A DNA stretch of 64,000 nt, taken from assembly GCF_000279145.1 (NCBI RefSeq), contig NC_018178.1, forward strand, positions 3,047,688 to 3,111,687, read 5' to 3'. The translations under genes and the position numbers were made by a program. The notes beneath the pieces are model-generated. The model was not told the origin of the DNA, did no database searches, and saw nothing but the letters and a program-made list of their open reading frames with translations. The stretch is from Melioribacter roseus P3M-2. Its GTDB lineage: Bacteria; Bacteroidota; Ignavibacteria; Ignavibacteriales; Melioribacteraceae. Positions 20,356 through 42,208 of the stretch are shown piece by piece; positions within the stretch are counted from its first letter, which is position 1, and each line of letters opens with the position of its first letter.

Positions 20356-21051
20356 TCAGCTGTCTTCATCCGGTTTGTTCTTTTCCAGTTTTTGCAATTT
20401 CTTTTTATGAGAAATTATTTTTGCTTCCACATAAAACACCAGGTCTTCGGCAATGTTTGTAGCATGGTCGGCAAGACGTTCGATATGTTTGGTCATTACA
20501 ATAAGATGAGAGCACGGTTCAATTAATTCCGGCTGGGACTTCATTTTAGAAACTAGAAATTTGAATGCCTGTTTATTGTATTTATCCACAATTTCGTCTT
20601 CTTTCATGACGGTTTCAGCCAGCTGGCTGTCGTTATAGATAAAAGAATTGATAGCTTCTTTCAACATTTTACGCGCTTGCTTGCCCATCTCGTTAATTTG
20701 AGCTTCTACAATTAACGGGTAGTTATCGGCGGTTTTTTTGACGCGCTTGGCGATGTTCACCGCAATATCTCCGCAGCGTTCGAGTTGATTGTTAATCATC
20801 ATAGCGGAAATAATAAAACGGAGGTCGGCGGCAAAGGGCTGAAAGAGCGCTAAAATGTTTTCGCATTGCGCCTGGATTAAATTGTCGTAAGCGTCCACTT
20901 CAATGTCGCGGGCTTTTACTCCCTTGCACAATTCGACTTTGCCCGTTTCGAGCGCTTCGATTACCCTTTCTACCTGTTCGTCGACAATCGACGCCATTTT
21001 AATGAGATTATTTTTCAAACTTTCCACTTCGGCGTTAAAATGTTCCTGCAT
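20356..21051 (-). CDS. phoU: Phosphate transport system regulatory protein PhoU
   Basis: 231 residues from the ATG at 21051; CGGAG lies 5 bases upstream of it, and the GTG two codons earlier is inside the ribosome site. Two three-helix PhoU repeats are visible, each with the metal-binding E/D-x-x-x-D pattern (A-R-D-I-E-V-D-A-Y-D-N and C-G-D-I-A-V-N-I-A-K-R; M-K-E-D-E-I-V-D-K-Y and A-D-H-A-T-N-I-A-E-D). PhoU links the Pst transporter to the PhoR sensor kinase and represses the Pho response in phosphate-rich medium. It is the last gene of the pst operon, 16 bp after a pstB. Cytoplasmic and membrane-associated. Confidence 0.95.
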   Translation of the reverse strand: MQEHFNAEVESLKNNLIKMASIVDEQVERVIEALETGKVELCKGVKARDIEVDAYDNLIQAQCENILALFQPFAADLRFIISAMMINNQLERCGDIAVNIAKRVKKTADNYPLIVEAQINEMGKQARKMLKEAINSFIYNDSQLAETVMKEDEIVDKYNKQAFKFLVSKMKSQPELIEPCSHLIVMTKHIERLADHATNIAEDLVFYVEAKIISHKKKLQKLEKNKPDEDS

Positions 21052-21067
21052 AATCACTCCGTTTTGA

Positions 21068-21820
21068 TTAACCGAATCTACCGCTTATATAAGCTTCCGT
21101 TTTTTCATTTTCGGGCGCGGTAAATAATTTTTTTGTATCGTTAAATTCAATCAGGTCGCCCATATAGAAGAACGCCGTTTGGTCGCTCACACGGGCTGCC
21201 TGCTGCATATTATGTGTAACAATAACAATAGTATAATTTTTTTTCAACTCAAAAATCAGGTCTTCTATTTTTGTCGTGGATATCGGATCCAATGCGCTTG
21301 CCGGCTCGTCCATTAAGATTATTTCCGGTTCCACGGCTAAAGCTCGCGCAATACAAAGCCTCTGCTGCTGCCCGCCGCTGAGCGACAGCCCGCTCTTTTT
21401 CAGATCGTCTTTTACTTCTTCCCAGAGCGCAGCCTTTTTTAGACTGTTTTCGACAATCTCTTCAAGCCGTTTTTTGTCGCGTATACCGTTGATTCTGGGA
21501 CCGTAAGCCACATTGTCGAAAATAGACATCGGAAAAGGATTCGACTTCTGGAAAATCATTCCCACATTTTTTCTCAATTCAACTATATCGACCCTGTCTT
21601 TATAAATGTTCCTGCCGTTAATAATAACGTCGCCTTTGATTTTTACGCCGTCGATCAAATCGTTCATTCTGTTCAGGCATCTGAGGAATGTCGATTTGCC
21701 GCAGCCCGAAGGACCGATCAGTGCCGTGACCTTCTTTTCTTTAATGTCCATCGAAATATCTTTCAATGCCTGAAATTTGCTGTAAAAAAGGTTCAGATTT
21801 TTTACTTCAATAATATTCAT
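21068..21820 (-). CDS. pstB: Phosphate ABC transporter ATP-binding protein PstB (second copy)
   Basis: 250 residues, full length. Walker [11 protein letters not shown]-loop [11 protein letters not shown] signature L-S-G-G-Q-Q-Q-R, Walker [14 protein letters not shown] and H-loop V-T-H-N-M-Q-Q-A are all intact. It lies 4 bp downstream of a closely similar pstB, so the pair is a tandem duplication. The two proteins share the [10 protein letters not shown] segment and the C-terminal Y-I-S-G-R-F-G. Energises phosphate import through PstA/PstC at the inner membrane. Confidence 0.95.
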
Positions 21821-21824
21821 AATA

Positions 21825-22628
21825 TCAGCCGAAACGTCCGGAAATATATTCTTCAGTTTGTTTATTAGAAGGATTTGTAAATATTTTTTTTGTATTGTCG
21901 TATTCGATCAGTCTGCCCATATAAAAGAAAGCCGTATAGTCGCTTACGCGCGCGGCTTGCTGCATATTGTGAGTTACAATAACAATCGTATATTCTTTTT
22001 TCAATTCATAAATCAAGTCTTCGATTTTAGCGGTTGCAATCGGATCCAGCGCGCTGGTCGGCTCGTCCATTAAAATTACTTCGGGATTCAGAGCGATTGT
22101 CCGGGCAATACACAATCTTTGCTGCTGCCCTCCGGATATACTGGCGCCGGAGCGGTTTAGATTGTCTTTAACTTCGTCCCATAATCCGACTTTCTTTAAA
22201 TTTTCTTCGGCGATTTCGTTCAATAATCTTTTGTCGCGCATTCCGTTTAATTTCAATCCGGCAACGACATTATTCATTATCGACATAGTCGGAAACGGAT
22301 TCGGCTTTTGAAAAACCATACCGACCCTCTTTCTGAGTTCGACCGGATTGATATTTTTTATATCTTCGCCGTCGAATAAAATACTCCCGGAATATGTCCC
22401 GCCAATCACTTCGTGCATTCTGTTCAGGCATCTGAGGAATGTCGATTTGCCGCAGCCCGAAGGACCGATTATGGCCGTAACCTGATTTTTGGGTATGTTG
22501 AGATTGACTTCAAAAAGCGCCTGCTTTTCGCCGAAATAAGCCGATAAGTTTTTTGTTGAAACAACCGCCTCTTCTTCGGTTACTTTGCGGCTTTCGTAAA
22601 TTATATTTGTGACTGGTATTTGGCTCAC
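21825..22628 (-). CDS. pstB: Phosphate ABC transporter ATP-binding protein PstB (first copy)
   Basis: 267 residues, with about 20 extra N-terminal residues compared with its tandem neighbour. Walker [11 protein letters not shown]-loop F-Q-K-P-N-P-F-P-T, signature I-S-G-G-Q-Q-Q-R (a common PstB variant), Walker [14 protein letters not shown] and the H-loop are present. It begins 8 bp after pstA. Because both copies keep every catalytic motif, they may form a heterodimer or be differentially used, as in Bacillus subtilis, which also carries two adjacent pstB genes. Confidence 0.95.
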
Positions 22629-22636
22629 GGGTCAAT

Positions 22637-23503
22637 TCAGTTGGTTTTGTATTTAGAACGAGTAATTATTTTGAACGTTAAACTTAATAAAGAAATCAAA
22701 ATTATTAATACTAAAGCCGCAGTCCATGCCTGTGCGTTCCAATCTTCAAAAGGCGCTCGCGCGTAGTCGTAGATATAAACCGTAAGAGAAGCAATCGGTT
22801 CGAATACATTTGTAGACCAGAATCTGTTGCCGAGCGCGGTAAATAACAACGGAGCGGTCTCGCCTGCGGCTCTCGACAAACCGAGCAGTACGCCCGTAGC
22901 AATCCCTTTCCATGCAGTTCTTAGTATAATGAACAATGAAGTTTTCCATTTCGGTATTCCGAGTCCTAAACCGGCTTCGCGATAACTGTGAGGCACCAAT
23001 TTAATCATTTCTTCCGTAGTTCTCGTAATAGTTGGAATCATCAGGATTGCCAATGCCACTCCCCCTGCAAGAGCCGAGAACTGTTTCATCGGGATAACGA
23101 CTAGCGTATAAGCCACAACGCCGACTACAATCGAAGGTATGCCGCTGAGAACGTCGGTAAGAAATCTCAATAATTGTCCGAATTTATTTTTTCCGAATTC
23201 GGCAAGATAGATGCCCGACATAATTCCAACGGGCAGTCCGATAGCACCGCCGATGCCGACCAATATCAATGTGCCTACAATCGCATTAGCCATTCCGCCT
23301 CCGGGCTCGCCTACGGGTTTGGGCATCTCGACAAAAAACTCCAGATTCAATCTGCCGATGCCTTTCGAGACCGTATAGTAAAAGATTAAGAAGAGCGGCA
23401 ATATGGCGATCAATGCGGCAAGAAAAGTCAATGAATTTACCGCTAAGTTTACCGCTTTGCGGTATTTAAGTCTTCGTTTATATTTTTTTAATTCTGTTTC
23501 CAC
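22637..23503 (-). CDS. pstA: Phosphate ABC transporter permease PstA
   Basis: 288 residues, six predicted membrane segments. The binding-protein-dependent transport motif is visible (Y-R-E-A-G-L-G-L-G-I-P-K-W-K-T, the EAA loop) together with L-S-R-A-A-G-E-T-A-P-L-L, typical for PstA. Its start codon overlaps the end of pstC by 16 bp, consistent with translational coupling. It forms the inner-membrane phosphate channel with PstC. Confidence 0.95.
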   Translation of the reverse strand: METELKKYKRRLKYRKAVNLAVNSLTFLAALIAILPLFLIFYYTVSKGIGRLNLEFFVEMPKPVGEPGGGMANAIVGTLILVGIGGAIGLPVGIMSGIYLAEFGKNKFGQLLRFLTDVLSGIPSIVVGVVAYTLVVIPMKQFSALAGGVALAILMIPTITRTTEEMIKLVPHSYREAGLGLGIPKWKTSLFIILRTAWKGIATGVLLGLSRAAGETAPLLFTALGNRFWSTNVFEPIASLTVYIYDYARAPFEDWNAQAWTAALVLIILISLLSLTFKIITRSKYKTN

Positions 23504-24441
23504 TGCTTTTCCAGACTCCAGACTAATAATCGTGCGGCAATATTAATAATAATAGTAATTACGAACAGGATTAACGCCAATTCGATTAATGCGCTTAAAT
23601 AGAGTTCCGTAGTAGCTTCGGTAAACTCGTTGGCAATAATGCTTGCCATGGTATATCCGGGATCGAAGAGCGATTCCGAAATAATCGGGCGATTGCCGAT
23701 TACCATTGTAACTGCCATAGTTTCGCCGATGGCTCTTCCCAATCCGAGCATTACGGCGCCGAGAATACCCGATTTAGAATTTTTCAGAACAATTTTAATA
23801 GCTTCCCATTTAGTGGCGCCCAAAGCGAGAGCCGCTTCCTTTTGAACCGACGGCACCGATTTCATTATATCCCGCGATATCGAAGTTATAATCGGCAGCA
23901 CCATAATCGATAGAATTATTGCCGCGGCCAGCATACCGAATCCGTACATCGGTCCGTCGAAAAAGGGCAGATATCCGAAATGTTCGTTGAGAAAGGGTTC
24001 CACTTCTTCGCGCAGCCATGGAACCAGCACGAATATGCCCCATAAACCATAGACAATGCTCGGTACGCCGGCTAGTAATTCGACCATAAAAGACAGCGGT
24101 TTTTCGAGCCATCCGGGCGCCGACTCGGCCAGATAAACGGCAACCGCAAGACTCAAAGGAACGGCAATCATTAAAGCCAGGAAAGATGAAACGAGCGTGC
24201 CGTAGATCGAAGGGAGCGCTCCGTAAATTTCTTCCACCGGGTCCCAGGTAGTCTCGGTTATAAAATCCCATCCGAATTTATCGATCGACAATTTCGAATT
24301 GATATACATTTCGTATCCCATCAGGATTATCATCGCGAATACAATGACGGCAAATATTAACGTCAACTTTTCATAGATGAAATCGCCGATATTGATTCGG
24401 GACGATTTAACGGATTTTTTAACGGACTTCGTTTTTTCCAT
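23488..24441 (-). CDS. pstC: Phosphate ABC transporter permease PstC
   Basis: 317 residues with a basic cytoplasmic N-terminus and six membrane segments. E-L-L-A-G-V-P-S-I-V-Y-G-L-W-G and the EAA loop K-E-A-A-L-A-L-G-A-T-K-W-E-A, followed by L-G-R-A-I-G-E-T-M-A-V, are hallmarks of PstC. It begins 7 bp after pstS and overlaps pstA by 16 bp. Confidence 0.95.
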   Translation of the reverse strand: MEKTKSVKKSVKSSRINIGDFIYEKLTLIFAVIVFAMIILMGYEMYINSKLSIDKFGWDFITETTWDPVEEIYGALPSIYGTLVSSFLALMIAVPLSLAVAVYLAESAPGWLEKPLSFMVELLAGVPSIVYGLWGIFVLVPWLREEVEPFLNEHFGYLPFFDGPMYGFGMLAAAIILSIMVLPIITSISRDIMKSVPSVQKEAALALGATKWEAIKIVLKNSKSGILGAVMLGLGRAIGETMAVTMVIGNRPIISESLFDPGYTMASIIANEFTEATTELYLSALIELALILFVITIIINIAARLLVWSLEKQWKQN

Positions 24442-24447
24442 AAAGTT

Positions 24448-25497
24448 TTATTTTACCTTAATCGGTTTGCCGTTAACTGTCAACATATCGATTTTTTTCA
24501 TGCACAATTTAACAACCGAAGTCGGCAAAGGAGCGTAATAAAGACTTTCGGCATACGATTCGCCTTTTGTCAAAGCCCACTTTAAGAATTTAACCAACGC
24601 TTCGGCTTTCTTTTGATCTTTCATATCTTTATAAATCAAAAGCCATGTAAAGCCCGAAATAGGATAGGAGTCTTTTCCGTCGGCGTTTGTAATCATGGCT
24701 CTGAGATCATCGGGCATATCTTTGGCGGCTCCGTCGGAAGCCGCGGAAACCGTCTTAAAATTCGCTTCGATGAAATTTCCCGCGCGGTTTTTAATTGCAA
24801 CGTGAGGAAGTTTATTCTTTACGGCATAAGCAAGTTCCACGTATCCGATTGCTCCTTTAGTTTGTTTGATCATCCCCGCCACGCCTTCGTTGCCTTTGCC
24901 GCCCAGTCCGATCGGCCAGTTAACCGAAGTGTTGTATCCGACTTTCTTAGCCCATTCTTTACTTACATTTGAAAGATAATGAGTAAAGATGAACGTAGTA
25001 CCGCTGCCGTCCGAACGATGCACCACAATTATGCTTCTGTTTGGGAGTTTAACGCCCGGATTTAATTTGGCAATCCTTTTATCGTTCCACTTATAAATTT
25101 TACCCAGAAAAATATTTGCTATAGTCTCCCCGTCAAGTTTAATCGTTTCTTTAACTTCCGGTAAATTGTAACTCAGAACAACGGCGCCCAAAACCGTCGG
25201 GATATGAATTACATCCGTGCCCTGTTTAGCTTTTGCTTCTTTAAGCTGTTCGTCGCTCATCGGTCCGTCGCTGGCTCCGAAATCGACCGTGCCTTCGATT
25301 ACCTGTTTAATACCGCCGCCGCTTCCAATAGACTGATAATTAATTTGAACGCCCGTTTGTTTATGAAACTCGTCGAACCATTTGGAATAAATCACGTAAG
25401 GGAAAGTCGCTCCGGCTCCGTTGAGTTTAACCTGCGCCGGGAGATTTATTAAACCGGCAATCATGAACATCATTAAATAAATTATTTTTCTGTACAT
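24448..25497 (-). CDS. pstS: Phosphate-binding protein PstS
   Basis: 349 residues with a signal peptide (cleavage near P-A-Q). The phosphate-binding segments are present: N-G-A-G-A-T-F-P-Y at the start, S-I-G-S-G-G-G-I-K, F-G-A-S-D-G-P-M and H-R-S-D-G-S-G-T-T-F-I-F. The absence of a lipobox cysteine suggests a soluble periplasmic form. It follows the porin gene by 18 bp and feeds phosphate to PstC/PstA. Confidence 0.96.
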   Translation of the reverse strand: MYRKIIYLMMFMIAGLINLPAQVKLNGAGATFPYVIYSKWFDEFHKQTGVQINYQSIGSGGGIKQVIEGTVDFGASDGPMSDEQLKEAKAKQGTDVIHIPTVLGAVVLSYNLPEVKETIKLDGETIANIFLGKIYKWNDKRIAKLNPGVKLPNRSIIVVHRSDGSGTTFIFTHYLSNVSKEWAKKVGYNTSVNWPIGLGGKGNEGVAGMIKQTKGAIGYVELAYAVKNKLPHVAIKNRAGNFIEANFKTVSAASDGAAKDMPDDLRAMITNADGKDSYPISGFTWLLIYKDMKDQKKAEALVKFLKWALTKGESYAESLYYAPLPTSVVKLCMKKIDMLTVNGKPIKVK

Positions 25498-25514: not shown

Positions 25515-26531
25515 TTAAAATTTCCAGTAAAACGAAATGCGCGGGACTATATCCGGGTCGCCGCTGCCGTACGTAACTATTTCGATATTGGGAGCTATAT
25601 GAACGGATTTATCTGGAACAAAATCCGCCGCTGCAAGAATCAAAGTGTTTTCGTCTTTTGATAGATCCGAGTTAGGCTCGTAATAATCAATGCGAAATAC
25701 GAATTTCAATTTTTCATTCAACCGAAAATGGCTCCATGCCGAAACGCCGTATGAATTTTGATCTGCAAGAGGAGACGTTGACGACTTATAGAAATTATTT
25801 TCGATTTTACGGTAAAACGACTCAATTCCAAAATTCAATTCTTTATACGAATAACCGACAAAAGCGGATGTTACAATACTGTTGTTGTTTTTGTAAGAAT
25901 TCGTAAACCCGTCTTCAATCATTCCGGAAGAAGAGTAATCGAAGTATGCGGTTAATGTTAAATTTTTCGCAGGACTAAATTGCAACAGTGAATAATACCT
26001 TTTGAATTTGTCGTTTTCCAGTCCGCTTTTTGAATTGTTGCCAATTTTAAGCCAATATTTGATTTTGCCCTTTGAGGTCAGATTGCCTTTCAGGTCGAGT
26101 CCCATGTCCCTGCTCGATACGATTTTGTTGTAATCGAGAATCGTTTTTTCAAGAAATCGATAGCCCCACGATTCTTCCGAAATACTGAAAGCCGGAGTCG
26201 GCGACAAACCGATCATCGCATCCGAACCTTCGAAAATGCCGTTCCACTTCAACCATGCGTCCTTTACATCCGTAGTAAAATTTGAACCTTGCCAGCTCGA
26301 TTCGAGACGGAAACGCGTGCTGAACTTTTCGGATATTTTAAAGTCGGTAGTAAAATAGATTCTCCTGAATTGAAATCCGTTAATGTCGTTTTTCCCGTTG
26401 TCATTTTGTTGAACGTTGTAAAAATAATCTCCAAAAACGAGTCCGCTTAATTTTGGAAGGTTTTGCGCTGATATTTGAAATGAAATCATTAAAAAGAACG
26501 TAATTATTGGCAAAACAATTTTCTTGCTCAC
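25515..26531 (-). CDS. Outer-membrane beta-barrel porin, phosphate-uptake associated
   Basis: 338 residues, signal peptide ending near I-S-A-Q, then alternating aromatic/polar strands throughout and a terminal strand I-S-F-Y-W-K-F with C-terminal Phe, as in outer-membrane porins. The pattern (F-G-D-Y-F-Y-N, F-Q-F-R-R-I-Y-F-T-T-D, W-G-Y-R-F-L-E-K-T) is like the OprP/OprO-type phosphate-selective porin family, but exact membership is not certain. It is the first gene of the porin-pst-phoU operon and lies about 70 bp downstream of a Pho-box-like pair, so it is likely induced by phosphate limitation. Confidence 0.82.
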   Translation of the reverse strand: MSKKIVLPIITFFLMISFQISAQNLPKLSGLVFGDYFYNVQQNDNGKNDINGFQFRRIYFTTDFKISEKFSTRFRLESSWQGSNFTTDVKDAWLKWNGIFEGSDAMIGLSPTPAFSISEESWGYRFLEKTILDYNKIVSSRDMGLDLKGNLTSKGKIKYWLKIGNNSKSGLENDKFKRYYSLLQFSPAKNLTLTAYFDYSSSGMIEDGFTNSYKNNNSIVTSAFVGYSYKELNFGIESFYRKIENNFYKSSTSPLADQNSYGVSAWSHFRLNEKLKFVFRIDYYEPNSDLSKDENTLILAAADFVPDKSVHIAPNIEIVTYGSGDPDIVPRISFYWKF

Positions 26532-26600
26532 TCTCTCCTCTCTCTCCGGTTTGCAAAAAAAATGAGTTACACAATAATAAGAATTAAAAAAATCCGCAGT

Positions 26601-26616
26601 GTTAAGAAATTGTTAA
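26601..26616 (-). promoter_or_regulatory. Pho-box-like direct repeat upstream of the pst operon
   Basis: GTTAAGAAATTGTTAA on the plus strand: two GTTAA units starting exactly 11 bp apart (26601 and 26612), i.e. TTAAC-type repeats on the coding strand, about 70-85 bp before the porin start. The 11-bp period and the TTAAC core are those of PhoB/PhoP-family direct-repeat sites. The same unit is present four times at 32135-32172. Confidence 0.65.
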
Positions 26617-26681: not shown

Positions 26682-27419
26682 TTATCGCAGCAGTATCATT
26701 TTTTTGGTTTCAATAAAGTCGTTTATTTTCACTTGACAAAAGTAAACTCCGGACGGTAAATCCGATGCGTCAAAGTCGAGAGTATAACGTCCAACAGACT
26801 TAAATTCATTTACCGGCGCGCTGATTACTCTGCCGAGAATGTCGTACACAATTATCCGCACTATACCCGGTTTATAAACCTCATACGAGATGCGAGTATG
26901 CGGATTGAACGGATTCGGATAGTTCTGTTCGAGCGAATAGTCTTTTTCGGGCAGCGGGTTTTCTTCTACGCCAACATACCCTTCGCCGTCGATATAAATC
27001 GTATACACCGGATAATTACGGGCGTTACTTATGAAATATAAAGTATCAGAAAAATTTTGAAACGGCGTAGCGCCTTCGCAAATAGGACACAGGTCGGGCG
27101 TATAAAAAATTAATTTGACCGAGTCCCCAGGAAAGATAATAATGTCTTTAAAGATCTTATCAAACCCGAGATAAAACAAATAAGATGTATCCCTTGAATA
27201 AATTTCTACTGGATATCCGTAGATTTTATTTGAGTAGATACTGTCGATTATCAGATCCGATGCGCCGGCGTTGTATAAAAACAAACTGTCGTAAATATCG
27301 CCGAACGCTCCGTCGCCCGAAATATGAAGGGAATCCTTGCTGAATTCAATACTCTGCGAAAAAATTACATTTTGCAGAGTAATTAGAAACGCCGCGACAA
27401 GAAAAAAGCGCTTTTTCAT
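26682..27419 (-). CDS. Secreted protein with HYDIN-like Ig domain and type IX sorting domain
   Basis: 245 residues. Signal peptide MKKRFFLVAAFLITLQNVIF, a single Ig-like domain of the ASPM/HYDIN sort (F-L-Y-N-A-G-A-S-D-L-I-I-D-S-I, about 48-62; a C-P-I-C pair near 115) and a C-terminal type IX sorting domain beginning Q-N-Y-P-N-P-F-N-P and ending K-K-M-I-L-L-R. Probably a cell-surface protein; function unknown. It lies between the Pho-box-like site of pst and the TonB receptor locus, and may be part of the phosphate-stress response by position only. Confidence 0.8.
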   Translation of the reverse strand: MKKRFFLVAAFLITLQNVIFSQSIEFSKDSLHISGDGAFGDIYDSLFLYNAGASDLIIDSIYSNKIYGYPVEIYSRDTSYLFYLGFDKIFKDIIIFPGDSVKLIFYTPDLCPICEGATPFQNFSDTLYFISNARNYPVYTIYIDGEGYVGVEENPLPEKDYSLEQNYPNPFNPHTRISYEVYKPGIVRIIVYDILGRVISAPVNEFKSVGRYTLDFDASDLPSGVYFCQVKINDFIETKKMILLR

Positions 27420-27634: not shown

Positions 27635-29272
27635 TTATTTCAATAATGTCATTTTTTTCGACACGACATAATTCTCGGTTTCCAATCGGTAGAGATAGAG
27701 ACCTGAAGGCAGGTTATTTGCGCTCCAGGTAATATTATACTTTCCCGCTTCTTTATAACCGTTAATCAATTTTTCTACCTCCTGCCCGAGCGTATTGTAC
27801 ACGGTCAATTTTACGTTGCCCGATTTCGGCAGTACGAATGAAATTGTTGTAGTCGGATTGAAGGGATTGGGATAATTTTGACTCAACTCGTAAGCGGCGG
27901 GAATTATGTTTGTATATTCTTCGTCAACGCCTGTGAGCGTATAATCGGTATTTTGCGGATCGTAATTTGTCCAACCTTCGTCCCATCTGGCGCCCGAAGG
28001 ATCGAAAGCTCCTATAAATTCGACGGACTCGAAAAATCCTCCGCTCAAACGGGGATTGTCGAAATTTGCGCCGCTTGCAGCAGGCGAGTCGCTCATCGGC
28101 GTCGCATTCGGAGCGCTCTGATTAAACGGGTCGGTTAACTTGACTTCCACGCTCGTCTCAAATTCCTGATTCGAGTAGGACGAAGTTTTGAACCACGAGA
28201 CGACGTCAAAGCTCTCGACGTTGGTCGTCAGGTTCTTTCCGCTCTGAGCGCCGGCTATAATAGTATTGCGTATTTGTAAACTGTCGGACTGAGCTCCCGC
28301 TACGCTGTTCTCTCCGTCAAGGTATAATCCCACAGGATAACCCATAATTATCGAATTATATACCGACGTCAATGTCGATCTGCGCAAATGCATTCCGCGT
28401 TTGAAGTTCGGATTAAATTCCGTATAGTCCGGATTTACAAGAGGTCCTATTAATGTTACGTTTGAAAATATCGGACGTGTTCGAGGCTCGTTCAATGTTC
28501 CCGTTCCGTCGTTGTCGGATTCGAAACCGTTGCTGCCGCTTATGTCCGCTATATTGAAATCCCTGTAACCCGCTAAAAATTGCAGATTGCCTCTGTATCC
28601 GAAGTCCGTATCGAATTCATCGTCGACGCCTTTGTAAGCTATCAAATACTTGGCGTTCACGGTCCCTCCGAAGAATTCATAGGAATCGTCGCCCGAATAA
28701 CTTACCTGTATGTGGTCGAGCGTTGTACCTCTGCCCACTCCCGCCAACGTCAACCCGTTTATTTCGTTGTCGGGTAAATAAGCTATGCCCGGAAATTCAA
28801 TGCGCACATAACTCATTATACCGCTGTTGTCGTTATCGTCCGGATTTTCTCCGCCGCCGTAGATTGTGCCGGTGCCGCCTTCTATTACTGCAGTTCCCCC
28901 GGGTACGTTTATGCTTGCTCTACCTGCGATGATAATACCGCCCCAGTCCCCTGCCGCTCTTTGCCCCGCAGGCTGCTGACTTGTAAATACAATCGGATTG
29001 TTCGGAGCGCCCACTGCATTTATCTTCGCCCCGCGATTAATGATGAGTGTGCCTTTTGACGATTTTTCTCCGTAGATAATTGTACCTGCGGGTATTGTCA
29101 ATGTAGCGCCCTCGTTAACATTTACAAATCCTTTTAACAAATATTTTTTATTTGCATCCAATGTTAAATCCGAATTGATATCTCCCTCGAGCGCTTCATC
29201 GTATTGAGCAAGCTGAGCATAGAGATTAATGCCGGATAAAATGAATATTAGCAGTAAAATACGTTTGCACAT
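27635..29272 (-). CDS. Secreted beta-helix-like protein with type IX sorting domain, TonB receptor partner
   Basis: 545 residues. Signal peptide to about residue 20 (G-I-N-L-Y-A-Q), then a region of repeated glycine-rich turns (I-P-A-G-T-I-I-Y-G-E-K, T-L-I-I-N-R-G-A-K-I, G-D-W-G-G-I-I-I-A-G) of a long beta-solenoid found in many Bacteroidetes surface proteins, often placed next to a TonB receptor. The C-terminus is a type IX sorting domain (Q-N-Y-P-N-P-F-N-P to K-K-M-T-L-L-K). The asparagine/aspartate-rich segment around G-D-D-S-Y-E-F-F-G-G and D-D-E-F-D-T-D-F-G is characteristic of the family and could bind calcium. It follows the TonB receptor gene by 17 bp and ends at a strong terminator, so the two form an operon. 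A role in capture of a phosphorus-containing substrate is inferred only from the Pho-box-like repeats upstream. Confidence 0.83.
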   Translation of the reverse strand: MCKRILLLIFILSGINLYAQLAQYDEALEGDINSDLTLDANKKYLLKGFVNVNEGATLTIPAGTIIYGEKSSKGTLIINRGAKINAVGAPNNPIVFTSQQPAGQRAAGDWGGIIIAGRASINVPGGTAVIEGGTGTIYGGGENPDDNDNSGIMSYVRIEFPGIAYLPDNEINGLTLAGVGRGTTLDHIQVSYSGDDSYEFFGGTVNAKYLIAYKGVDDEFDTDFGYRGNLQFLAGYRDFNIADISGSNGFESDNDGTGTLNEPRTRPIFSNVTLIGPLVNPDYTEFNPNFKRGMHLRRSTLTSVYNSIIMGYPVGLYLDGENSVAGAQSDSLQIRNTIIAGAQSGKNLTTNVESFDVVSWFKTSSYSNQEFETSVEVKLTDPFNQSAPNATPMSDSPAASGANFDNPRLSGGFFESVEFIGAFDPSGARWDEGWTNYDPQNTDYTLTGVDEEYTNIIPAAYELSQNYPNPFNPTTTISFVLPKSGNVKLTVYNTLGQEVEKLINGYKEAGKYNITWSANNLPSGLYLYRLETENYVVSKKMTLLK

Positions 29273-29289: not shown

Positions 29290-32088
29290 TTATAGTTTGT
29301 AAGAAATACTTATTGAAATAGCGGATTCCCTGCCGTTCAGGCGGGCTCTTTTATCTCCCTGCTTGAATATCTGATCCTTTCCGAGAATATCTTTGGCGGA
29401 AAATTTCAACGACAAGCTTTCTGTCAATGATTTATTGATTACAAAATCGATAACGTCCCTCGGCTCTTCTATTATATCTTCCTGATATGCCGTGGCTACT
29501 TCGATAATTCTCTCCCCGATTCTGTTATAGAGCAGACTCACTGTTGCGCCGTTATCGTCGCTGTTATAAGACAATCCTATATTAATAGTATAAGGCGACT
29601 GCCCCTGCAGAGGTCTGCCGTTACGCGCTATTGTTGTTTCCGTACCTTTAACAGTAACGGAAGATTTAACGCGAGTGTAATTGCCATTTAAGAAGAAATT
29701 CGAAAGCATACCGGTAATTCGTCCCAAACCGAATCTGCCTTCGAGTTCGAGTCCGTAGACTTCCGCTTTATCGGAATTTCTGAATGTTCTTTCGGAGCCC
29801 AATGCGCTTCCGGTAACCACAACCTGCTCGATTGCGTCTTTCATATCTTTATAGAATAGACTTGCCGATATCATTTCTCCGATTCCGAAATACGATTCGT
29901 ATCTGAGGTCGTAATTTTTAATGACAGCTCGTTTCAGATCGCTATTGCCCCGTATTGAGGTTTGAGTATAAAAATCGAAATAAGCAAACGGAGCCAATTC
30001 TCTCAGTTCCGGACGATTAACGGTTTGATTTGCCGACAATCTCAGGTTTGCATTTTCGTTCAGTTTATAAATTAGATTCAAAGACGGCAGAAGATCGTTA
30101 TTAGTAAGTTCAATAAAAATATCTTCCCTGTCGGAAAGGTCGCGCGAATTGACAGTTTGTCTCGAATTTTCAAGTCGGGTGCCGCCGACCAATTTAAGTT
30201 CCTTTCCCAGAAAGTCTAAGCTGTATTCTGCCATAAAATAGAAAGCCGATATAGTCTGACCTGCATTGTAATTATTGGTTCCGTTGAGATATTCCTGAAT
30301 AGAAAATCCGTTGCGTCGGTAATTATCCGGACTGAAAATTTGATCGAGCGGCAGATATAAAAGTTTGAAATCGGTATAACCGTTGCCCGGCGCATTGATT
30401 ATCGTACCGATCAAACGGGAACTGAATTCCCTGTTTTTGTCCTCGTAAAGTCCTCCAAGTTTGAGATTAACCGCTTTCAAGGGAATTTTGAAATCGGCTG
30501 CAAAACCGGTAGTAGTCTCGTCGAGATTCGAATAAAAGCGTCCTCCGTTTTTAAGATTGACCTGCGGTCCCAGCAAAGCCGCAAATTGATTGTCGCTGCC
30601 GAGGTCCCGCGAATAAATTACACGCCTGTAGTCGGGCTCGTTGCGCTTCGATATTGAATTGTACAAACGCCATTCAGTTTGAAGCAGACTACCAAAGTAA
30701 TGCTCGCCCGATAACTGTCCCAGATAAACTTCGCGCGAAGTAAATCTGAAGGCGCTTTGAATTTGTTCCGTTCCCGAATCGGTAAATTGAGCGCCTCTCA
30801 GCTCCGACACCTCGTCGTCGGAAGTATGGCTGTATGTATTTTTGAAACTCAATTTATGATTGTTGCCGAGTTTATAACTGAGATTGAGCAATCCCCCCCA
30901 TAAAGTGGAATATTTATATTGCCGCCCACCGTAGCTGAAACGGGTTTCTCCGCTCGATTCGTACTCGTTGCGTTCTAGATTTGTCCTATTAAAATTATTC
31001 TTGTACGAAATGGCCGCTACGAAACCGAAACGCGGTCCGAGGAGCGTAACTCCGTCGCCGAGAGAAATCATAAATCCGCCGTTGAGAGGCGCTTTCTTAG
31101 TGCGGGTAGACCAGTTGTTGGGCAGTGTTTGGGCAAATTGCAATATTTCTTCGGACGAATAATTCCCTTTGCTCAAGTCGGAAGGAATTGAAGACGGGAG
31201 ACTACGCGAACCGTCGTCGATTCCCAGAAAATCGAGTTTGCCGCCGTTATAAGTTTTGAAGTCCTCCAGCGACGTATTGTTCGAAAACGAACCGTTGATT
31301 GTTATATTAAATTTAAGTTTGTCGGGAAAATCGATCGTGTTCAGATTTACAAGACCGCCGGCAAAGTCACCCGGCTTGTCGGGCGTATACGATTTATCGA
31401 TGACCGTATTTGCCAGGAGATTCGAGGGGATCAAATCAAAAGCGAACGATTTTTTGTCGGGTTCGGCGCTCGACAGAGGCGAATTGTTCAAAAGAGCATT
31501 GCTGTAACGTTCGCTTGTGCCTCTTACGAAAATAAATTTATTGTCGACTACGGAAATTCCCGTAATGCGTTTCAAAGCGTCGCTCGACGTGGCGTCGGGC
31601 GATCTTTTTATCTGTTCGGCGCTGATACCGTCGCTAATCGAAATTGAATTTTTTTGTTTGTTCAACAGAGCCGCCTCGTAAGATTCATCGGCTTTACTGG
31701 TTACAACCACTTCGTCGACAGCTATGGCTTCGCTTCTCAAAGCTACGTTTCGTATTACGATTTCACCGCCCTTAACAATAACATTTGATATTTTCGTTTT
31801 GGCATACGATATATAGCTGACAATCATTTCGTAATTACCGGCGGGAACGTTTTCGATAGCATAATTGCCTTCTATATCGCTTGCCGCGCCGAGCGTTGTT
31901 CCGGAAAGGAAAACATTCGCACCGATGATAGCCTCTCCGCTCGCTGCGTCTACCACTTTCCCTTTTATTGTGCCTTTATTCGTCTGCGCATTCGTATGAA
32001 TAGAAATCACCGCGGCTATTAATAAGATTAACCGAATTGTTTTTATCAATTTCGACGACCTCGTTTTGGTTGCAGTAAATAAATTCAT
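29290..32088 (-). CDS. TonB-dependent outer-membrane receptor, likely phosphate-starvation regulated
   Basis: 932 residues. After a signal peptide (to about residue 34, T-N-A-Q) comes a CarboxypepD_reg-like domain (G-K-V-V-D-A-A-S-G-E-A-I-I-G-A-N), then a plug domain (S-P-D-A-T-S-S-D-A-L-K-R-I-T-G-I-S-V-V, F-V-R-G-T-S-E-R-Y-S-N) and a large barrel ending S-I-S-Y-K-L. The plug has the K-S-Y-T-P-D-K-P-G-D-F-A-G-G insertion common in this receptor subgroup. It is followed 17 bp later by the secreted type IX solenoid protein. Four 11-bp-spaced GTTAA repeats lie about 47-84 bp upstream of the start, as in the upstream region of the pst operon. Substrate unknown; organic phosphate or a metal-phosphate complex is a hypothesis. 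Confidence 0.9.
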   Translation of the reverse strand: MNLFTATKTRSSKLIKTIRLILLIAAVISIHTNAQTNKGTIKGKVVDAASGEAIIGANVFLSGTTLGAASDIEGNYAIENVPAGNYEMIVSYISYAKTKISNVIVKGGEIVIRNVALRSEAIAVDEVVVTSKADESYEAALLNKQKNSISISDGISAEQIKRSPDATSSDALKRITGISVVDNKFIFVRGTSERYSNALLNNSPLSSAEPDKKSFAFDLIPSNLLANTVIDKSYTPDKPGDFAGGLVNLNTIDFPDKLKFNITINGSFSNNTSLEDFKTYNGGKLDFLGIDDGSRSLPSSIPSDLSKGNYSSEEILQFAQTLPNNWSTRTKKAPLNGGFMISLGDGVTLLGPRFGFVAAISYKNNFNRTNLERNEYESSGETRFSYGGRQYKYSTLWGGLLNLSYKLGNNHKLSFKNTYSHTSDDEVSELRGAQFTDSGTEQIQSAFRFTSREVYLGQLSGEHYFGSLLQTEWRLYNSISKRNEPDYRRVIYSRDLGSDNQFAALLGPQVNLKNGGRFYSNLDETTTGFAADFKIPLKAVNLKLGGLYEDKNREFSSRLIGTIINAPGNGYTDFKLLYLPLDQIFSPDNYRRNGFSIQEYLNGTNNYNAGQTISAFYFMAEYSLDFLGKELKLVGGTRLENSRQTVNSRDLSDREDIFIELTNNDLLPSLNLIYKLNENANLRLSANQTVNRPELRELAPFAYFDFYTQTSIRGNSDLKRAVIKNYDLRYESYFGIGEMISASLFYKDMKDAIEQVVVTGSALGSERTFRNSDKAEVYGLELEGRFGLGRITGMLSNFFLNGNYTRVKSSVTVKGTETTIARNGRPLQGQSPYTINIGLSYNSDDNGATVSLLYNRIGERIIEVATAYQEDIIEEPRDVIDFVINKSLTESLSLKFSAKDILGKDQIFKQGDKRARLNGRESAISISISYKL

Positions 32089-32134
32089 TTTTCCTCTCCC
32101 CTTGAATGTTACACTGCAAACCTACGAGACTAAT

Positions 32135-32172
32135 GTTAACGTAATGTTAAGCGAGCGTTAAGGTAATGTTAA
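32135..32172 (-). promoter_or_regulatory. Four-copy Pho-box-like direct-repeat array
   Basis: GTTAA occurs at 32135, 32146, 32157 and 32168 on the plus strand, an exact 11-bp period over four copies; on the coding strand this reads TTAAC(A/G) every 11 bp, which resembles the TTAACA repeats of Bacillus PhoP sites and the 11-bp period of E. coli Pho boxes. It lies 47-84 bp upstream of the TonB receptor start codon. The shared unit with 26601-26616 upstream of pst makes a common phosphate regulator likely. The rest of 32089-32272 has no gene. Confidence 0.75.
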
Positions 32173-39503: not shown

Positions 39504-39962
39504 ATGTCCGTAAATTTAAACGAAGCGCACGAAGTTTTTCGTAAGTACCTTAAGCAGGAAAAGCACAGGGTAACTCCTGAAAGATTCGAAGTTCTCGATT
39601 TCGCATTGAAATACGAAGGACATTTCGGAGCCGACGAGCTCTATCTGAGGATGAAAAACAACAAATCGAACGTATCGAGAGCCACGGTTTATAACACACT
39701 CGAGCTGCTCGCAGCATGCGAACTATTGGCTAAAAGAAACTTCGGAGAAAACAAAACCCGTTACGAGTCGAACTACGGGAGAAAATCGCACGACCATCTG
39801 ATATGCATTAATTGCGGAGCAATCAAAGAATTTACGGAACCCGAAATCGAAGAGATTGTAGCTCAGGTGGCGAAGAAACTCGGTTTCAAACCGCAAGGTC
39901 ATTCATTTAATATTTTCGGAAAGTGCAATAATGCAAACTGCAAACATAAAGACAATGAATAA
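39504..39962 (+). CDS. fur: Fur-family metal-responsive repressor
   Basis: 152 residues, within Fur length. DNA-binding half: R-V-T-P-E-R-F-E-V-L-D-F-A and S-R-A-T-V-Y-N-T-L-E-L-L. Metal half: H-D-H-L-I-C-I-N-C-G (regulatory site ligands and the first Cys pair, C-x2-C) and a C-terminal C-N-N-A-N-C-K-H. Sits directly upstream of feoA/feoB, its stop overlapping the feoA start, so iron regulation of the operon is likely; Fur versus PerR cannot be decided by eye. Confidence 0.92.
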   Translation: MSVNLNEAHEVFRKYLKQEKHRVTPERFEVLDFALKYEGHFGADELYLRMKNNKSNVSRATVYNTLELLAACELLAKRNFGENKTRYESNYGRKSHDHLICINCGAIKEFTEPEIEEIVAQVAKKLGFKPQGHSFNIFGKCNNANCKHKDNE

Positions 39963-40182
39963 TATTACTCTCGACAAAGCTCGAAAAGGTAATTTGATTA
40001 CAATCGTCAACCTTCCCGGAGGAGAAATCAACGCTCAGTTGATTCGAATCGGTATTTCCGAAGGCGAAACGTTGGCGTGCCTTCAAAGACTTCCGGGCGG
40101 CACGATTATTCTTCAGAAAAACAGACAGGAAATTGCCGTCGGCTACGACCTGGCAAAAAATATTAAAATTATTCTGCGGTAA
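39955..40182 (+). CDS. feoA: Ferrous iron transport protein FeoA
   Basis: 75 residues from the ATG at 39955, which overlaps the end of fur; an upstream in-frame start is less likely because it reads through fur. SH3-like fold with L-D-K-A-R-K-G near the start, R-I-G-I-S-E-G-E-T-L and V-G-Y-D-L-A-K-N-I at the end. Modulates FeoB at the inner membrane. Followed 2 bp later by feoB. Confidence 0.9.
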   Translation: MNNITLDKARKGNLITIVNLPGGEINAQLIRIGISEGETLACLQRLPGGTIILQKNRQEIAVGYDLAKNIKIILR

Positions 40183-40184
40183 AT

Positions 40185-42208
40185 ATGAAATCTGATAATA
40201 TCGTTAATATTAATTCTCAACTTTCGAACGTAGATATCGATATAAAAAACGTCAAGACCGAAAAGGTGGTTCTAGTAGGAAATCCTAACGTCGGCAAATC
40301 GTGCGTATTCAATTATCTTAGCGGAAAATATGTGGACGTTTCGAATTACCCCGGCACAACCGTCTCGATTACAAGATGCAATTATAAAGGTAAAAAATCT
40401 ACGACACCCCAGGCATCTACGGCGTTTCTTCTTTCAACGAAGAAGAAAAAGTAGCGCGGGATATTATTCTGGAAGGCGACGTAGTAATAAACGTAGTAAA
40501 CGCACTCCACCTCGAACGCGACCTGTTCCTTACGCTTCAATTAATCGATATGGGAAAAAAAGTTTCTCTTATTCTTAACTTTGCCGACGAACTCAAAAAA
40601 AGAAAAATTAAGATCGACACGCAAAAGTTATCCGATTTACTTGGAATCGATGTTTACGAAACGACTGCTGTTAACAAAGCGGGACTCGACCAGATCGATA
40701 AAGCCATTGAGAATGCGCGCGTTGGCAATCAGCGGCTCGATTTACACTTCATGTTGCAGCAGTTTGTAGACGAAGGAATTCCGCAGGCTGAAGCTTTATT
40801 GATACTCGAAGGCGACGAGTTTACGGCAAATAAATACAACAAACCGATTAATAAAGACGAGCGCGAGAAAATTTATATAACGCGTCGAAACCGCGTAAAC
40901 GAAATTATCGATATTGTAGAACACGAAGATTCCAGAAAAGGCGAAATCTCCAATCTGATTGGAAGATTGTCGCTTAATCCGATAACAGGCATTCCGATTT
41001 TGTTGGCAATTTTAACGCTCGTTTACTTCTTTATCGGAGATTTCATTTCTCAGCGCGTAGTGGATTTTACCGAAAATACGGTCGGCGTCGGAATTGTAGA
41101 ATACAATATAAAGTCTTTCGTTTCCAATTATACGTCGTCGCTTATCGACGTGGAAATTCTGGATGAGAATGAAAATCTTATCGACAAAAAAATTTATAAT
41201 TTTCCCGACGGCATGAACGCCAATCCCGACTTAAAAGCGGACTTCGAGAACTTTTCTTCTCAGCCCGGAGCTCAAACTACATTTCATTATTCCAATCCGA
41301 TAGTAAAATTGTTCTTCGGCGAATTCGGCGTTATAACTATGACTACTACATACCTCCTATTCCTTTTGTTGCCGCTCGTCATCGGATTCTATTTTGTAAT
41401 GGCTCTGTTGGAAGACAGCGGTTATCTGCCGCGTCTGGCAACAATGCTCGACAGAACATTTAATAAAATCGGATTAAACGGAAAAGCTGTAATTCCGATA
41501 ATACTCGGATTCGGCTGCATTACAATGGCAAATATTACAACCCGCCTTCTCGGTTCGGAACGAGAAAAGTCGATAGCTACGGCAATCTTGCAATTCGTTA
41601 TACCCTGCTCGGCGCAGCTTGCGGTTATTACGGTTCTTTTAAGCGGAGCCGGGTTAACCCCGTTATTGATTTTTATCGGCGTAATCGGCTCGGTGTTAAT
41701 AATATTGTCTACGGTTTTGAATAAATTGATTCCCGGTCAAAGTTCGCCTCTTCTAATCGATCTTCCCATCATGCGGTTACCCAGAATTTCGAACGTATTT
41801 AAAAAGATGACATACAGAAGTTACGGCTTTATGAAAGAAGCCGGATTCTGGTTCTTCGTCGGGGCTCTGGCAGTCGGCGTAATGGATATTACCGGACTAT
41901 TGCTTCTATGGCAGGATATCCTTGCGCCTTTGACAACTCACTGGCTCAAGCTTCCCAAAGAAGCTGCCAATGCATTCGTTATGGGTATGGTAAGACGTGA
42001 TTTCGGAGCCGCCGGACTTTTTGCGATGAATCTTACCGTTATGCAAATTACAGTCGCTATTATAACAATAACTCTTTTTACGCCCTGCATTGCGTCTTTC
42101 GTTGTAATGCTAAAAGAACGAGGCTGGAAAGAAGGATTGACAATCTGGTTGGGTACCTGGGTTACAGCATTCTTTATCGGCGGTCTGGTAGCTCAGTTTA
42201 TAGTATAA
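40185..42208 (+). CDS. feoB: Ferrous iron transporter FeoB, one-base frameshift in the G domain
   Basis: The first 70 codons give G-N-P-N-V-G-K-S (G1), Y-P-G-T-T (G2) and R-C-N-Y-K-G-K-K, then run off frame. Shifting by one base at the six-A run at 40392-40397 restores I-Y-D-T-P-G-I-Y-G-V (G3), then E-E-E-K-V-A-R-D, V-V-I-N-V-V-N-A and V-S-L-I-L-N (the G4 region). The rest (from about 40550) has the spacer helices, Gate domains and eight or so membrane segments with G-C-I-T-M-A-N-I and I-P-C-S-A-Q-L-A-V-I, ending G-L-V-A-Q-F-I-V. With one extra A the product is 674 residues, normal for FeoB. It transports Fe(II) across the inner membrane; the G4 motif N-x-x-D appears as N-F-A-D. Confidence 0.9.

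Follow-up and report, generated by a model that had tools for sequence, protein, structure and literature searches.

Direct binding of PhoB to a pst promoter has been reported by EMSA in Bacteroides fragilis, in a paper whose main text uses neither the term "binding site" nor "consensus" (PMC3547664). No definition of a Bacteroidota Pho operator was found in the open-access literature searched. For Flavobacterium johnsoniae, PUSIV is described as phoBR, the TBDT Fjoh_0545 and the lipoprotein FII Fjoh_0546, and PUSIII as Fjoh_3857/3856; the TBDT/FII and TBDT/FI pairs are strongly induced on phosphate depletion, and FI is the most abundant exoprotein (PMC8115612). The main text of that report makes no mention of a Pho box, motif or promoter. 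In Caulobacter crescentus, the lipoprotein ElpS is made in phosphate starvation and released in a T2SS-dependent manner, and its neighbour Cc0171, a TonB receptor encoded next to T2SS genes, is reported to be constitutive (PMC2996285). Here we describe a locus of Melioribacter roseus P3M-2 in which a TonB-dependent receptor and a secreted beta-helix protein lie next to a pst operon, behind a tandem repeat that we regard as a putative operator.

The locus and its predicted promoters

The DNA analysed is a stretch of 64,000 nucleotides (the window). The features of interest all lie on its minus strand, and positions are those of the window unless a genome position is stated:

32135..32172, minus strand: putative operator array of four TTAAC units with an 11-bp period (from the sequence and from 33 of 34 receptor-family promoters)
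32117..32124, minus strand: predicted -7 element TAGGTTTG (10 bases past the last TTAAC; phase test; consensus TAnnTTTG)
29290..32088, minus strand: TonB-dependent receptor of 932 aa with an N-terminal CarboxypepD_reg-like domain (PF00593, PF13715, PF07715)
27635..29272, minus strand: secreted right-handed beta-helix protein of 545 aa with a T9SS type A sorting domain, ElpS/FII-like (PF18962, TIGR04183)
26682..27419, minus strand: small T9SS-sorted protein of 245 aa (PF18962)
26601..26616, minus strand: putative operator of the pst operon, a pair of clean TTAAC units (from the sequence; weak, profile score 7.5)
26572..26579, minus strand: predicted -7 element TATTATTG, differing from TAnnTTTG at one position (21 bases, or 10+11, past the last TTAAC)
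25515..26531, minus strand: outer-membrane porin-like protein, first in the pst operon (40% identity to a porin with PF07642 from this genome)
24448..25497, minus strand: PstS (TIGR00975, 410 bits, cut-off 205)
23488..24441, minus strand: PstC (TIGR02138, 326.9 bits, over the cut-off)
22637..23503, minus strand: PstA (PF00528 and position)
21825..22628, minus strand: PstB-type ATPase (PF00005 and position)
21068..21820, minus strand: second PstB-type ATPase (PF00005 and position)
20356..21057, minus strand: PhoU (PF01895)

The preliminary description of this DNA had drawn attention to four exact GTTAA repeats spaced by 11 bp upstream of a TonB receptor, and to the same unit and spacing in a pair before the porin-pst-phoU operon. 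Both observations are confirmed when the sequence is read back, with starts at 32135, 32146, 32157 and 32168 for the array and at 26601 and 26612 for the pair. On the minus strand, which is the sense strand of TTAAC and of the downstream genes, the units of the array read TTAACATTACC TTAACGCTCGC TTAACATTACG TTAAC, and the leader continues through ATTAGTCTCG to the predicted -7 element TAGGTTTG, with the ATG 28 bases further on. Head-to-tail direct repeats of 11 bp, as seen at 32135-32172, are a trait of Pho boxes.

In the window, TTAACN6TTAAC occurs four times against an expectation of 0.30 (sd 0.64), and none of 100 dinucleotide shuffles reaches that count. The exact three-unit array is unique to the receptor site in the single-contig genome of 3,300,414 bp, and TTAACN6TTAACN10TAnnTTTG, allowing no or one mismatch, finds the receptor promoter as its sole site. 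Scored with a three-unit profile, the receptor array reaches 36.0, and no other place in the window scores at least 12. Looser patterns are not enriched in the same genome: the triple with up to two mismatches gave 15 matches against 40 in the reversed control, and the full array plus -7 pattern with up to three mismatches gave 77 against 138. The pair was expected by the preliminary description to be enriched at phosphate genes, and in its own genome it is not enriched at all (12 matches against 32 reversed); the expectation is borne out by the exact triples of 58 relatives, described below. Six of the eight pair matches outside the window lie within long ORFs (L001, L002, L005-L008), L003 lies between ORFs, and L004 is a site at genome position 1244238. 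The TTAAC pair by itself proves nothing. A single genome cannot decide on the array, and relatives were therefore compared.

At the pst promoter, a degenerate third unit, GATTT, stands in register at 26590-26594. The profile score of the pair is 7.5, and the highest among the 20 control promoters, 11.6, exceeds it. Its position, the near-consensus -7 element in phase and the arrays before the pst operons of relatives suggest that it may act as a weak operator. The operon runs porin-PstS-PstC-PstA-PstB-PstB-PhoU, and the porin-like ORF has no Pfam match of its own.

The best PhoB candidate (L117) is encoded at genome positions 2713999-2714676, adjoined by a PhoR/PnpS-like kinase. Its best family is NF053854, the Bacteroides-type PhoB (249 bits, cut-off 270), and it scores 225.9 bits for PhoB (cut-off 296.2) and 225.5 for YycF/WalR, so that the name PhoB is provisional. 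No array was found within 300 bases upstream of it, the best score there being -12.4.

Arrays and their phase in related genomes

A protein search for the receptor in 58 related genomes recovered 33 full-length family members, including that of M. roseus, and one partial member, all well apart from paralogues by search score. Members were picked by protein, and arrays lie upstream of 33 of the 34. The first 30 loci all carry an array within about 250 bases upstream, with 12 to 15 matches among the 15 core letters of three units (shuffle p 0 to 0.04); four further loci yielded three arrays, the exception being the family member of G015, which has none upstream. At two loci (L106 and L115), the antisense strand outscores the sense strand. 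Twenty paralogous receptors, taken as controls, have raw scores of 8 to 12 of 15, so that raw receptor and control scores touch at 12 (L115 and L419 against L200 and L202). The profile separates them, at -17.9 to 11.6 for the controls and 18.5 to 39.4 for the 30 receptor loci, which are also the loci on which the array profile was trained (the unit profile was built from 122 units). Three later array-positive receptor loci, outside that training, score 18.0, 31.9 and 34.0. The number of units in a receptor array ranges from 3 to 6, four being the commonest (21 of 30), and their consensus is TTAACATTnnC.

The distance from the array to the promoter is fixed in helical terms. TAnnTTTG is the -7 consensus described for Bacteroides (PMC4747536). 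In the receptor set, searched 27 to 107 bases past the array start, all 19 exact TAnnTTTG elements lie 10+11k bases past a TTAAC; the binomial probability of 1.6e-20 assumes independence, and relatives are not independent. The exact elements of the later loci are placed alike (3 of 3). When one mismatch is allowed, an in-phase -7 element is present in 27 of 30 sequences and any other phase in at most 10. The same tendency is weaker in the pst set described below, where three of five exact elements are in phase and, with up to one mismatch, 11 of 20 sequences have one in phase, against at most four for other phases. The receptor set thereby displays a further trait of Pho boxes, a fixed spacing to a promoter element. 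By analogy, such phasing would be expected if regulator subunits bound once per turn, on one helix face and in place of a -33 element.

For pst operons, 37 pstC regions were collected with TIGR02138, one per genome, from 38 genomes with a separate pstC above cut-off; the genome of M. roseus, second copies and fused forms (G008, G009, G013, G015, G029, G046) were left out. A sense array above threshold is present in 20 of the 37 regions and absent from 17, and antisense clusters number three. Reversed sequence gave four clusters, a control that is probably inflated because the sense arrays of those four regions hold TTAACAATT, which carries the core both ways. One of the 20 arrays (L218) belongs to a phosphoesterase promoter.

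Exact three-unit arrays gave 46 matches at 33 sites in 25 of the 58 related genomes, against four matches in the reversed control. By reading of the loci, 30 of the 33 sites were classed at receptor, pst/phosphonate/porin, phosphoesterase/glycosyltransferase or CHAD genes. Receptor family members account for 17 sites, one of them at a fragment, and pst, porin or phosphonate-transport operons for ten; the array before pstS in G040 is inverted, the first ORF at the G042 site has no family match and pstC lies 2.6 kb downstream, and the phosphonate-type gene of G044 was recognised by its likeness to the G050 counterpart. Two sites serve one divergent phosphoesterase/glycosyltransferase pair (G014), and one, an exact four-unit array (L414:2520-2557, G025), stands at a gene for a CHAD domain, a domain with a link to polyphosphate. 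The three sites outside these classes are in G053, where the array overlaps an ORF end, at G024:C47, with a carbonic anhydrase gene further downstream, and at G008:C113, before a 65-aa ORF. Conservation upstream of pst and other phosphate genes is thus shared with Pho boxes, with the reservation that the window's own pst site is weak.

The full array plus -7 pattern is a poor screen. With up to one mismatch it gave 51 matches in 34 of the 58 relatives against 55 reversed, the control covering exact and one-mismatch matches together, and it was rejected for this use; since the relaxed pattern matches its control, only exact or longer arrays carry signal. Inspection covered 18 of 30 loci. The eight exact matches fall at receptors (G000, G002, G046, G050), at pst-type operons (G042, G048), at a histidine kinase gene (G043) and at the 65-aa ORF of G008.

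How far does the arrangement extend? At phylum scale the strict triple is present in 54 of 296 genomes, with 43 matches against 15 reversed outside the class and 5 against 4 in the same class outside the order. The case for breadth therefore rests on the phased promoters of distant Bacteroidota. In 31 of the 35 receptor loci from the partner search that were used for a phase scan, a scorable TAnnTTTG was found in 11 (12 elements) and none in 20. Over the 12 elements the mean unit score is highest (3.22 to -0.31) at offsets -15, -26, -37 and -48, and it is -7.0 or lower at all other offsets from -10 to -59. Seven of the 11 loci score above 10 over three in-phase units, and three (L242, L243, L265) are negative. 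The seven of the 11 with clear arrays are from Chitinophaga, Prevotella, Spirosoma, Dyadobacter, Rudanella, Arcticibacter and Chloroherpetonaceae.

Several further sites were recorded in passing. In G050 and G044 (L020, L219, L238), arrays precede genes for a phosphonate-binding protein and an ABC ATPase, and pstC follows some 3.9 kb downstream; family matches were checked in L020. In M. roseus, back-to-back degenerate arrays at genome positions 1723917-1724105 (L080, L081, L147; profile 27.5 and 12.4) separate a calcineurin-like phosphoesterase gene from a glycosyltransferase-like gene. Exact arrays occur in a like divergent layout in G014 (L024), and in G040 (L412) a phosphoesterase gene is followed by an MGDG-synthase-like gene. 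These arrays suggest that phosphate-sparing lipid remodelling may be under the same operator. At genome positions 1244198-1244264 (L075, L148), a four-unit degenerate array (profile 23.6), with TATTTTCG in phase, precedes an ORF of 131 aa, probably secreted and without Pfam matches. A homologue in G007 (L404; 46% over 81 aa) has an array too, and the 131-aa ORF is possibly a conserved further member of the regulon. The phylum search also returned a different conserved-looking triple, TTAAC..GCATTAACCT..ATTAAC, in G080, G213, G217, G248, G262 and G284, all from a single genus in a different family.

The receptor and its beta-helix partner

In the beta-helix partner, a hydrophobic N-terminus is combined with a right-handed beta-helix (AlphaFold2 pLDDT 90.4) and a T9SS sorting domain. 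Past the hydrophobic stretch there is no cysteine, as a lipoprotein signal would have, and the protein is called ElpS-like rather than ElpS because a T9SS tail takes the place of that signal. VIA-align matched the model to NosD, AlgE4, pectate lyases, polygalacturonases and tailspikes, with Z 16.5-23.2 among the 50 matches listed; these are beta-helix folds in general, and the function of the partner is not fixed by them. A PDB sequence search with the partner gave no match, a profile search two T9SS tails only, and Foldseek weak matches only. Residues D195, D196, E199, D217 and D221, within the helix domain, are invariant in 42 sequences. The 245-aa T9SS protein is possibly co-transcribed with the pair.

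A receptor-type ORF lies beside the partner in 23 of 30 loci and, in a second set, in 35 of 40 (some loci end at contig ends); the second set is 40 of 80 loci, the other 40 matching mainly by the T9SS tail. An adjacent TonB receptor is a trait of ElpS/FI-FIII proteins, and it is present here; in Marinobacter H10, none is annotated beside the partner homologue. phoR-phoB is adjacent and divergent to the pair in Flavobacterium fontis, F. luminosum, Chryseobacterium luteum and two MAGs (L260, L261, L267, L274, L278). In F. fontis an array (score 20.2) stands between phoB and the receptor, and the phoBR-side protein is 36% identical to the partner over 475 aligned residues. In a Latescibacterota MAG (L258), the pair is followed directly by two permease genes, pstB and phoU. 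Plasmids of Sphingomonas and Indioceanicola carry genes for a TonB receptor and gsp (type II secretion) genes after that of the partner; the Sphingomonas pair, in an elpS-type locus, matches at 41% over 282 aa for the partner and 27% over 862 aa for the other member of the pair. To judge by gene context, the receptor and its T9SS-sorted beta-helix partner form a widespread module.

Other assignments of the receptor were tried and rejected. As a TonB-Xanth-Caul member (TIGR01782) it scores 249.8 bits against a cut-off of 310. SusCD/PusCD membership fails on the SusC model (64.4 bits against 368.25) and on the partner, as no SusD family match was found among the 20 window ORFs scanned. Elsewhere in the window, at 39504-42208, a FUR-family regulator lies ahead of a FeoB-like protein. 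The GTPase domain at the N-terminus of the latter looks cut short in the ORF as called, only positions 104-156 of PF02421 being matched.

A probable Pho-type operator and its relation to known systems

We consider it likely that the array is a Pho-type operator that switches on a phosphate-starvation receptor/beta-helix pair. It is probably a true switch because the same phased array stands before the receptor in nearly all the relatives checked and before many of their pst operons. Array, conservation and phase together are, as far as sequence can tell, the anatomy of a PhoB-type operator. The 11-bp sites (consensus TTAACATTnnC) would form a tandem operator for a response regulator of the PhoB/PhoP family. 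When phosphate runs short, subunits of the phosphorylated regulator would occupy the array head to tail, each on one 11-bp unit and all on one helix face, and would keep RNA polymerase at the -7 element TAGGTTTG; by analogy with PhoB, the array would take the place of a -33 element. E. coli PhoB is the model for this arrangement of operator and polymerase. The operon switched on would encode the TonB-dependent receptor and the T9SS-exported beta-helix surface protein; the neighbouring porin-pstSCAB-phoU operon is probably switched on too, through its weaker site. An organic molecule carrying phosphorus is the most likely substrate for capture and import by the receptor and its partner. Both low-phosphate induction and the identity of the regulator, for which the PhoB/PhoR pair at 2713999 is the candidate, are what we infer from this picture.

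That the array is a chance or low-complexity repeat with no regulatory function is hardly credible. The genome is AT-rich, pairs are no commoner than in reversed sequence and the relaxed full pattern does not rise above its control, but chance would not be expected to place arrays at 33 of 34 receptor promoters, fix their phase to the -7 element and yield 46 exact matches against 4. A more substantial question is which regulator binds. Sites predicted for YycF in Staphylococcus epidermidis read TTAACA-N5-TTWACA and include pstS, phnD and murE (PMC5405149), and our PhoB candidate scores nearly equally for PhoB (225.9) and YycF (225.5). The array might then be bound by another OmpR-family protein, WalR/YycF-like or concerned with envelope stress, with the phosphate genes as part of a wider regulon. 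We regard this as improbable in view of the 30 of 33 exact triple sites that we class at receptor, pst/phosphonate/porin, phosphoesterase/glycosyltransferase or CHAD genes, none being assigned to cell-wall genes, and of the phoBR genes that adjoin the pair in five Flavobacteriales-type loci.

The operator may also be phosphate-related while the receptor imports a cargo without phosphorus, such as a metal or an acidic polysaccharide, that is needed when phosphate is short. The partner folds like pectate lyases, alginate epimerases and polygalacturonases (among the 50 matches listed, Z is 16.5-23.2), and a FUR-family regulator and a FeoB-like protein share the window. Against this, the module recurs beside pst or phoBR, and in F. 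johnsoniae three TBDTs are reported as induced by phosphate depletion only, in work that also included nitrogen and iron limitation (PMC8115612). Import of a non-phosphorus cargo is thus a serious but rather unlikely reading, and a Pho-type operator serving phosphorus capture is the one we prefer.

How do the earlier proposals stand in this light? The preliminary description took the repeat for a lineage-specific Pho box. The Pho box part holds for the operator-like arrays at the receptor and at the pst operons of relatives and is doubtful for the window's own pst pair (7.5); "lineage-specific" has to be given up because promoters of more distant Bacteroidota show a like phased architecture. 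Its core idea, that the TonB receptor and the T9SS surface protein belong together in a phosphate-starvation system, is probably right, given the conserved array and the gene context. Such a role had been thought unusual for this receptor type, and it is not new: low-phosphate induction of a TonB receptor/beta-helix pair is in print for F. johnsoniae (PMC8115612), as is that of a related secreted protein beside a TonB receptor in Caulobacter (PMC2996285). The phosphate link of the pair is already published; novelty seems to lie in the operator rule and in how far it extends.

More tentatively, and as a nearly even call, the rule may be a Bacteroidota-wide cis-code for phosphate starvation: 3-6 tandem 11-bp [TG]TAAYAT units phased at 10+11k bp with TAnnTTTG. 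The receptor/beta-helix pair would be among the most constant targets, an ancient module for capturing phosphorus in which the receptor is retained while the export route varies (in Proteobacteria T2SS; in Bacteroidota a lipoprotein or T9SS). If true, the Bacteroidota phosphate regulon could be read with a simple sequence rule, counting 11-bp units and checking the step to the -7 element. The receptor would take its place among phosphate-starvation genes, its import cargo would become directly testable, and the Caulobacter and Flavobacterium reports would be joined into one module.

With SusC/SusD (PusCD) systems the locus has in common a TonB receptor and a surface partner, but no SusD-family match was found among the 20 window ORFs scanned. 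The Sphingomonas and Indioceanicola homologue loci match the arrangement of elpS-cc0171 in Caulobacter, ElpS being likened by description (PMC2996285). The likeness to PUSIV of F. johnsoniae, also by description, is that a surface protein with the pectin-lyase fold comes after a TonB receptor (PMC8115612). Where PUSIV has a lipoprotein and lies with phoBR, the partner here carries a T9SS tail, lacks a lipoprotein signal and, with its receptor, lies beside pst. Pho boxes are likewise described as tandem 11-nucleotide direct repeats upstream of pst and other phosphate genes (PMC4415409). The core here is TTAAC(A), whereas that of the E. coli Pho box is CTGTCAT. The E. coli Pho box stands about 10 bp from the -10 element, much like the array-to--7 spacing found here. 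Unlike the E. coli Pho box, the array holds 3-6 units in receptor promoters and is paired with the Bacteroidota -7 element TAnnTTTG.
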